Assembly (NCBI GenBank): GCA_022821065.1
Contig: JAJEEK010000109.1
Span: 62,001 to 126,000, forward strand
DNA: 64,000 nt
Source: Candidatus Poribacteria bacterium
GTDB lineage: Bacteria > Poribacteria > WGA-4E > WGA-3G
Direction: 5' to 3'
A program made the position numbers and the translations under genes. Below the pieces are notes generated by a model that was not told the origin of the DNA, did no database searches, and saw only the letters and a program-made list of their open reading frames with translations. The stretch's first letter is position 1; the number at the start of each line of letters is the position of its first letter. Below, in pieces: positions 46,822 to 50,449 of this stretch.

Positions 46822-47190
46822 TTATATTTCTTTCCGCTGGAATGAGACGTGTGCCGCCGTAAACAACACTATAAAAAAGAGTAACAATAGCATCACGTCC
46901 AAGATCGCACCTTTGAATGCGTCTCCTAAACGTACGCTGTCTTGAAATTTCGGGATACTTTCAAAGGAGACGGGTTTATCAGACATACCCTCCCTAACAA
47001 AAGGAGCGTGTGGACTGTCTGGATCCGCGCGGTCGGCAGAGATAAGAAAATCGTTGAAAGTATCGGCATAACGCTCAACGTTTTTCAAGAAATTCAGAAA
47101 AACTGAGCACAATGGAGTTGAATCAGTGTCCAAAGCATCGTGTTTGTCTTCCCTAACCTTTTCGGTAGTAACTTGGGTAGAGTCTATCAC
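46822..47190 (-). pseudogene. probable C-terminal remnant of an ABC-2-type permease
   Basis: DPDSPHAPFVREGMSDKPVSFESIPKFQ...AILDVMLLLLFFIVLFTAAHVSFQRKEI; only one TM, no N-terminal TMs. Confidence 0.5.
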
Positions 47191-47257: not shown

Positions 47258-48667
47258 ATGGAAACGGAAACGCGAACCTCCTCAGCGATGCATGCCCCTG
47301 GTGCAATCCTCCTGATCTCCTGCTACGAACTTGGACACCGACCTGCAGGACTTACGCGTCCACGCCGCGCACTTGAAACAGCAGGGTTCACACCCAATGT
47401 CATTGATATTGCTGTCGAACCGTTGGATACTGAAAAGGTTGTCCGCGCCCGGTTCATCGGTATCTCCGTGCCGATGCATACTGCACTGCGACTCGGTATT
47501 CATCTCGTACATCGTATCCGGCAAATCAATCCGGATGCTTTGATATGTATGTACGGACTTTATGCGACACTCAACGCCGACTATCTACTTTCACAAGGTG
47601 TCAATTTTTGTATCGCTAACACAGCATCAACAGAACTCGTTGCGTTGGTAACATCCGTTGGAAAGAAAGAGCGGATTAAGACATATAGTGATGATGTCTC
47701 TGTTGGAAAACTACCGCCTCTGGATGTATATGCCCAGTTTGAGGATGACGGTGAGACACGAACCGTCGGGTATACAGAGACGACACACGGGTGTAAGCAT
47801 CTCTGCACACACTGTCCGATACCGCCGGTTTACAATGGCAAATTTTTCGTTGTCCAACCCGATACCGTACTTGCTGAGATACAGGAGCAGGTGGCGCAAG
47901 GTGCGACACATATTACGTTCGGAGATCCCGATTTCCTCAACGGACCGATGCACGGACTCCGTATCCTGCGTGCAATGCACGACGCTTTTCCGAACCTTAC
48001 CTTCGATTTTACGACGAAGGTTGAGCACATCCTGAAACACAGAAAACATTTCCGAGAATTCGCGCAACTCGGATGTCGGTTTATTATCTCCGCTGTGGAG
48101 TCGTTGAGTGAAACGGTTCTAACGATTTTGGAGAAACACCACACACGCGCCGATGTCGAAACCGCAATCGACATCGTTCACGGTGCGGGGATTGCCCTAC
48201 GCCCGACATGGGTGCCGTTTACACCGTGGACAACCTTAGACGACTATCTTGAGGTTTTCCAGTTTGTTGAGACGCACCGTCTTGTGTATCACGTGGATCC
48301 GGTGCAGTATGCCGTTCGATTGTTAATTCCGCCGGGTTCATATCTCCTCAATCGTCCAGAAACAAAGACGCTTTCACGGACGCTTGATGAGACCGCCTTT
48401 AGTTATATTTGGGAACATCCAGATGTGCGGATGGATGAACTCCATAAAACAGTCAGTGCGCTTGTAGAAAACGACGCGCGAATGGGTGTTGACCCACTGG
48501 ACACCTTTTATCGGATATGGGAACTCGCTGCCGGTATGCACGGTAGCAGGCACACGCCGTTGTACCATAGCAAAGCGGCGCATCCACACGCACCACGGAT
48601 TACCGAAGCATGGTTCTGCTGAGCGGAACCCACCGAAGGGCAGTTGGCCCCGATTCAATTTTTTTAA
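47258..48667 (+). CDS. B12-binding-type radical SAM protein, probable CUAEP-tail selenoprotein (Sec at TGA 48620-48622)
   Basis: LLISCYELGHRPAGL..VEPLDTEKV; TTHGCKHLCTHCP (CxxxCxxC); tail AWFC-[TGA]-AEPTEGQLAPIQFF-TAA. The ORF track stops at the TGA. Confidence 0.85.
48623..48655 (+). promoter_or_regulatory. candidate bacterial SECIS hairpin
   Basis: gggc(48638-48641)-agttg-gccc(48647-48650), loop 19 nt after the TGA; short stem, not folded computationally. Confidence 0.45.
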
Positions 48668-48682
48668 CGATTGAGTTCTGCT

Positions 48683-48712
48683 CCGATTGGTTGAACAGCC
48701 CAATCGGGTTTT
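48683..48712 (+). terminator. rho-independent terminator after the radical SAM gene
   Basis: ccgattgg-ttgaacagc-ccaatcgg-gtttt. Confidence 0.7.
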
Positions 48713-48947
48713 AAATAAAAATTTCATAGTACTATGAAAAAACGTTGAGTGAAAATCTCCGTTAAACATAGTTTGGTCTGAGTTCACGATATTTCTTGGA
48801 ATTCGTACTCTTCGGGTTTACTATGAAAACACGCAGTTATTCTGTTGTCAATAACCGATTTTGGTGATAGAATAACGCTCCATGAAATATTTTAGGTCTA
48901 ATAAACTATCTGTTTTTACTATAGAATTTTAGATGTAAAGGAGAACT

Positions 48948-49634
48948 ATGTCGGAACAATTACAACAATTACTTAATTTGGAAACTGCCTCTGTTGCCGT
49001 AACATTTCACGATACTCAACCTGATAGCATCTCCCGTGTAGAGAAAACGGAAGCCTCTGGTTGTACCTATTGGCGACGCGCTGCCGAAGGCAAAACTTTT
49101 TATACTGAGGCATCCGACCACTACAACTGTCCGATCGGATGTTATACACACAACGTTGAACTCCCGCCTGCGCAGATGGAGGAACTCGAAAATACACTCG
49201 GACTGATGGGTGAACTCGGCTATATTACGATGGAAGAGGTACCCGGTATTCCGAGGCGGGAAACGTCGTTTAAAAGCGCAGTCTATTCGCCTTTGGCGGA
49301 TGCATCTGACACTCCCGATGTCGTTATTATCTCTGGTACACCGAGACAGATGATGCTCTTGATGGAGGCTGCAACCGCTGCTGGTATCGGTACGGAGAAT
49401 GGTGTTATGGGCAGACCGACGTGTGCTGCTATTCCTGCCGTCATACAGAGTAGGCGAAGTGTGAGCAGTTTAGGGTGTATCGGTAACCGCGTGTATACCG
49501 CACTCTCTGATGACGATTTCTACTTCGCTTTCCCGGGTGAACACATTGACGTGCTTGTTGAGAAATTAGAGACGATTGTGAACGCGAACCGTGCGTTAGA
49601 GGAATATCACCAGCAACGCCAAGCGGAGATTTAA
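48948..49634 (+). CDS. DUF169 family protein
   Basis: LLNLETASVAVTFHDTQP; SGCTYWRRAAEGKTFYTEASDHYNCPIGCYTHNVELP; GRPTCAAIPAVIQSRRSVSSLGCIGNRVYT. Confidence 0.8.
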   Translation: MSEQLQQLLNLETASVAVTFHDTQPDSISRVEKTEASGCTYWRRAAEGKTFYTEASDHYNCPIGCYTHNVELPPAQMEELENTLGLMGELGYITMEEVPGIPRRETSFKSAVYSPLADASDTPDVVIISGTPRQMMLLMEAATAAGIGTENGVMGRPTCAAIPAVIQSRRSVSSLGCIGNRVYTALSDDDFYFAFPGEHIDVLVEKLETIVNANRALEEYHQQRQAEI

Positions 49635-49639
49635 GTATC

Positions 49640-50449
49640 ATGCAAAAGGTTGCTGTTATTACGGGTGCAGCGAGTGGCATCGGACAGGGTCTGGCGGAGC
49701 GGTTTGCTGCGGAAGGTATGAATGTCGTCCTTGCGGATGTCGAAGAAACGGCATTAGCCAAACTTGCAGCAGCGTTAGAAACTAAAGGTGCGACAGTGCT
49801 CACTGTCCAAACGGATGTTTCAAATGCTGCCGAGGTCGAAAACCTTGCAGTGCAGACGCTGGACACTTTTGGTGCGGTACATATTCTTTGTAATAATGCC
49901 GGTGTTGTCTGTAGTCGTCCGATCTGGGAGCATACCGTTGCCGATTGGGAATGGGTGTTAGGCGTTAATCTTTGGGGTGTGATTCACGGTATCCGAGCGT
50001 TTGTGCCGCGTATGCTTGCCCAAGGGGATGCGTGTCATATCGTAAATACCGCTTCCATCTTGGGTCTGATCGGCGGTGGTGGAACAGGCATCTATAAGGT
50101 GAGTAAACACGGTGTCGTCGTCCTTTCTGAGGCACTTGCTGATGAATTGGCACAGAAAGGCGCAAATATTCAGGTGCATGTGCTGTGTCCCGGGTGGGTC
50201 CGTACAGGGATTTTGGATTCTGATCGGAACCGTCCAGATGCGTTGCAAAATCCAGATATGGAAGAGCCTCCGCTTCAACAAACACTTGGCGGTTCTGGAA
50301 ATGCCCGAGCTGAGATGGAAGCGGGGATGTCGCCTGCGGAAGTGGCGGAACATGTTTATAACGCTATTCAGAATGGGACCTTCTATATCCACACGCACCC
50401 TGAACACAAAGCGGCAATTCGTGAACGTATGGAGCGTATCCTTGAATAA
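49640..50449 (+). CDS. SDR family oxidoreductase
   Basis: VAVITGAASGIGQGLAERFA; LCNNAGVV; IYKVSKHGVVVLSEAL. Confidence 0.93.
   Translation: MQKVAVITGAASGIGQGLAERFAAEGMNVVLADVEETALAKLAAALETKGATVLTVQTDVSNAAEVENLAVQTLDTFGAVHILCNNAGVVCSRPIWEHTVADWEWVLGVNLWGVIHGIRAFVPRMLAQGDACHIVNTASILGLIGGGGTGIYKVSKHGVVVLSEALADELAQKGANIQVHVLCPGWVRTGILDSDRNRPDALQNPDMEEPPLQQTLGGSGNARAEMEAGMSPAEVAEHVYNAIQNGTFYIHTHPEHKAAIRERMERILE

Follow-up and report, generated by a model that had tools for sequence, protein, structure and literature searches.

A radical SAM gene in the window (64,000 nucleotides of a Candidatus Poribacteria genome of the sponge-symbiont type, contig JAJEEK010000109.1, positions 62001-126000) is very probably a real selenoprotein gene. 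Comparison with its homologues indicates that the UGA at 48620-48622 is read as selenocysteine (Sec) and that the protein ends at the TAA at 48665-48667. The gene lies at 47258-48667 on the forward strand, as do all window features given below unless stated otherwise, and it runs from ATG to TAA through 469 codons, including the one for Sec. The six-frame open reading frame (47258-48622) gives 454 amino acids and closes at the TGA. Beyond it the same frame stays open to the TAA, so that the protein gains the tail CUAEPTEGQLAPIQFF, in the frame and with the residues proposed in an earlier sequence-only reading. The codons TGC TGA GCG GAA CCC at 48617-48631 spell C-U-A-E-P, with Sec as residue 455. 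In the proposed mechanism, SelB with Sec-tRNA would decode the UGA, a hairpin at 48638-48650 would direct the insertion, and translation would terminate at the TAA.

The protein matched the NCBIfam family NF040546 with 614.6 bits (cut-off 500), its residues 17-464 falling on profile positions 1-467/468. This family is named "CUAEP/CCAEP-tail radical SAM (seleno)protein" in NCBIfam and is the one that the sequence-only reading had named; the N-terminal motifs and the CxxxCxxC motif to which that reading pointed also agree with it. The radical SAM [4Fe-4S] motif (C179, C183, and C186; 47792-47815) is invariant in the alignment, and the Pfam Radical_SAM model scored 52.4 bits. Residues 17-130 (47306-47647) form an N-terminal B12-binding-like (Rossmann) domain, with a Pfam match (PF02310, 28.0 bits) that is under the cut-off of 32.1 and does not imply cobalamin binding. 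The full-length match above cut-off, the radical SAM motif, the invariant WFC(U/C)AEP, and a TGA at the named Sec site are all shared with NF040546, and nothing excludes membership. As the Sec form found in Poribacteria, the window gene adds a new member to a family that NCBIfam already names as a (seleno)protein. TIGR04167 (rSAM_SeCys) and TrsS (NF045646) are likewise radical SAM proteins with a predicted Sec, but they are other families with Sec in other contexts.

A search by sequence found no relative of the window protein with a solved structure. The structure model had a pLDDT of 91 and a pTM of 0.90, and its tail was ordered (residues 441-450 had a mean pLDDT of 93, residues 451-460 one of 82). 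AprD4 was the best fold neighbour, followed by the cobalamin enzymes OxsB and TsrM; MgmA and MiaB-type enzymes were also among the neighbours.

Homologues with a CC/CU-AEP tail are numerous. Among 169 with a readable tail, the codon at the Sec position was TGA in 86 (37 loci of Poribacteria and 49 on the Chloroflexota side); the other 83 had a Cys codon, TGC or TGT, and nothing else occurred at this position. In 60 poribacterial relatives, each full-length gene copy had one in-frame TGA, and all the TGA copies examined continued with AEPT(E/Q) to a later stop; a search for orthologues ending plainly at the TGA found none. W452, F453, C454, C/U455, A456, E457, and P458 were invariant in 72 aligned proteins. 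Additional in-frame TGAs in three loci (L126, L152, and L156) were discarded, as they are located 5′ of the start codon. An apparent restriction of Sec to Poribacteria was an artefact of the pattern EAWFCCAE, which matched Cys codons only. A profile search recovered the TGA forms of Chloroflexota, where 98 of 400 genomes had the gene, about half of them with TGA. One Chloroflexota group that changed from Sec to Cys (L132, L133, L134, L136, and L140) has an extended tail that finishes with a second Cys-Cys, for example SSSCCGVGG.

The hairpin downstream of the TGA has a stem of GGGC (48638-48641) and GCCC (48647-48650) and the loop AGTTG (48642-48646). In the poribacterial set the loop, AGTTN, follows the TGA after 19 nucleotides. 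All four pairs formed in each of 34 distinct poribacterial sequences through G-C, A-U, U-A, or wobble pairing, a level that none of 500 shuffles reached, and slid registers were far worse. When 57 sequences of Poribacteria and Chloroflexota were considered, 95% of the cells paired, and at two pairs both partners had changed in 53 cells. Pair 21-29 was C-G in 20, U-A in 14, and G-C in 12 sequences across phyla. Covariation across phyla was 0.555, against 0.256 in shuffled and at most 0.21 in slid alignments. Ten TGA rows outside Poribacteria had a one-pair mismatch in the register used. The codons of the loop are constrained as well: CAG was used in 34 of 34 poribacterial genes (CAG usage in the gene, 0.54), and the Leu codon was TTR in 10 of 10 (TTR usage, 0.22). 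All hairpin pairs were present in only three of 59 Cys homologues, and in seven of 82 in a larger set.

The bSECIS model describes a loop of 3-9 nucleotides with G in the first two places, a stem of 4-16 bp, a distance of 16-37 nucleotides from the UGA, and a minimum free energy of at most −7.5 (PMC13188914). The window hairpin agrees with these constraints (loop AGUUG of 5 nucleotides, 4 bp, 19 nucleotides from the UGA), and the energy of −9.4 kcal/mol, calculated for 48 nucleotides that include a second small stem, is within the limit. The stem is short, and by itself the window sequence folds no better than its shuffles (z −0.03). This bSECIS-type element, which the sequence-only reading did not mention, is the structure that matters. 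The terminator-like hairpin that the reading placed after the TAA and not after the TGA was found in part: an 8-bp inverted repeat is present at 48683-48707 (arms 48683-48690 and 48700-48707, 9-nucleotide loop), but it has only four T and was not reported by the terminator scan. It is a possible weak terminator. Folding and codon analysis also revealed an 8-bp hairpin at 48612-48630, GGTTCTGC-TGA-GCGGAACC, whose loop is the UGA. It appears to be largely forced by the WFC-AEP codons, and its weight as a functional element is small and uncertain.

The genome encodes the complete Sec machinery. Contig 5 has selB (362 bits) and a tRNA-Sec (76 bits; anticodon tca by ARAGORN) side by side, contig 67 has a selA match of 597 bits, and contig 4 has a selD match of 362 bits. 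SelD is itself a selenoprotein, with an in-frame TGA at the usual Sec place (CAGUASK; L084:1483-2526). About eight of 85 TGA-bearing genomes were without a tRNA-Sec match, probably due to draft gaps. In Chloroflexota, tRNA-Sec does not separate the Sec from the Cys forms, as it was present in 74 of 80 genomes or records; outside this phylum many Cys forms had no strong tRNA-Sec match. Co-loss of the machinery with the CUAEP gene was rejected: genomes that lack the gene retain the machinery, which must therefore be maintained by other selenoproteins, SelD at least.

If the TGA were an ordinary stop, the protein would end at AWFC and the AEP beyond it would be chance or a fossil. Gene finders do end the gene at this codon, and in the cultivated Thermomicrobium roseum the plasmid copy (CDS TRD_RS12835, NC_011961.1; L120:7944-9380) is annotated to finish exactly at the Sec TGA, which shows in a relative the loss of the tail by standard annotation that had been expected for the window gene. 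A chance reading is contradicted because all 86 TGA homologues enter AEP and W452 to P458 are invariant. The 86 tails read on with synonymous changes in the Pro and Thr codons, the Cys homologues run on through the same residues, the hairpin after the TGA covaries, and the genome holds the whole Sec machinery. An ordinary stop is thus extremely improbable.

A tree of the 169 proteins was rooted with ArsL-family sequences. The Sec/Cys state changed 12 times on it, at least nine of them on well-supported branches. Equal costs gave seven gains and five losses of Sec; other costs reverse the direction, so the state at the root depends on the costs.

The sequences also pointed to a partner enzyme. 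Within 200 nucleotides of the radical SAM gene, upstream or downstream, an ATP-grasp ligase gene was found in 51 of 132 non-poribacterial loci from several phyla. The ligase carries an L-amino-acid-ligase C-terminal domain (LAL_C2). In the window genome the ATP-grasp L-amino-acid ligase is unlinked, on contig 91 (33072-34427; loci L193/L195). Among 60 poribacterial genomes it was present in all 37 that carry the radical SAM gene, but in only four of the 23 that lack it (Fisher 4e-12, ignoring kinship). Within the genus the counts were 26 of 26 and four of 10 (p 1e-4, again ignoring kinship), and among its more complete genomes 22 of 22 and one of six, also with kinship ignored.

Other genes recur near the family. 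On the 3′ side of the radical SAM gene, a DUF169 protein (48948-49634) and an SDR dehydrogenase (49640-50449) are encoded in 23-25 poribacterial loci, and a promoter-like site at 48845 belongs to these two genes. On the reverse strand, 46822-47190 encodes a 122-amino acid C-terminal remnant of an ABC-2-like permease; in L004 and other loci the permease gene is intact (473 amino acids) and lies upstream of the radical SAM gene. Of the Chloroflexota loci (L123-L192), about 24 have a gene for a YggX-like iron protein that directly adjoins the radical SAM gene at its start or overlaps it there, and 40 have an Fmt-like formyltransferase paralogue in the vicinity; both are possible further parts of the pathway.

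The nearest characterised family is ArsL, of which an RCCLKC-tail protein was 38% identical over the core. ArsL has been proposed to use SAM as the donor of a 3-amino-3-carboxypropyl group that it transfers to arsenite, and hydroxyarsinothricin is its predicted product (PMC8552651). The two families have the same two domains and a vicinal Cys-Cys at the C-terminus, and in several plasmid clusters an ATP-grasp gene is close by: ArsL-family genes on plasmids of Priestia, Pantoea, and Alicyclobacillus are accompanied by such a gene, and the Alicyclobacillus ATP-grasp is distantly similar to the poribacterial one (23% identity). The terminal Cys-Cys of ArsL aligns with the C-C/U of the CUAEP proteins, a match that an end-to-end alignment can force. 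The window protein differs by its extra residues before the tail, the lack of a third tail Cys and of an ars cluster, and Sec in place of Cys. It has FCUAEP instead of RCCLKC, with only the two adjacent Cys/Sec positions corresponding.

Adjacent Cys and Sec near the C-terminus are also found in thioredoxin reductase, in its C-terminal Gly-Cys-Sec-Gly. That is an unrelated flavoenzyme, and the likeness is one of analogy only.

We tentatively propose, at somewhat under an even chance, that the CUAEP enzyme is an ArsL-like radical SAM enzyme that would make an unusual L-α-amino acid. By analogy with ArsL, it would probably do so through transfer of a 3-amino-3-carboxypropyl group from SAM onto an acceptor. 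The ATP-grasp L-amino-acid ligase of contig 91 would then couple the product. It is plausible that the CUAEP enzymes and ArsL share this logic, in which an L-amino acid is produced by a radical enzyme and then coupled by a ligase. The C-terminal Cys-Sec pair might fold back to the catalytic core and either serve there as a redox dyad like that of thioredoxin reductase or hold a soft atom that the radical step would use.

Two other roles for the pair have to be weighed. It could be purely a redox dyad that regenerates the enzyme or protects its Fe-S cluster in aerobes, in which case the cluster chemistry need not be ArsL-like. YggX-like and NfuA-like neighbours, which point to care of Fe-S in oxygen, speak for such a role, as does an extra Cys after AEP, often as CC, in 29 of 83 Cys forms and in none of 86 Sec forms, as if it replaced the lost Sec. 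After pairing on the tree this excess is one-directional but not significant (3.3 vs. 0.0 of nine pairs, median p 0.25), and the SECIS codon constraint may by itself bar Cys codons from Sec tails. We consider a purely redox pair a serious possibility, though short of probable. The pair could also be a site for arsenite or another metalloid, giving an organoarsenical product as with ArsL. That the nearest characterised family likewise ends in Cys-Cys and is predicted to make hydroxyarsinothricin (PMC8552651) favours this. ArsL-family genes sit in ars clusters, however, whereas no arsenic genes were found among the conserved neighbour clusters of the CUAEP genes, so the context does not support a metalloid substrate; the window protein also scored 316.1 bits with the ArsL model (NF040542), under its cut-off of 450. 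We consider a metalloid site unlikely.

The window gene is a solid case of a hidden Sec in a family that the 2026 inventory of 119 prokaryotic selenoprotein families (PMC13188914) does not include, and public annotation still removes the Sec tail, as in T. roseum. None of the literature searched contained the family name. It already existed in NCBIfam, and what is new here is the functional context, that is, the ATP-grasp partner and the kinship with ArsL. The comparisons suggest that the enzyme has a partner and belongs to an amino acid-making pathway that would be related to arsinothricin synthesis. More tentatively than for the enzyme itself, we suggest that this pathway could be widespread and undescribed: ArsL-type SAM chemistry would yield an L-amino acid that is coupled to a peptide or other amine, and the Cys-Sec dyad would act in the radical step. 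With the repeated exchange of Sec and Cys and the linked ATP-grasp ligase, a family without a function becomes a testable two-enzyme pathway.
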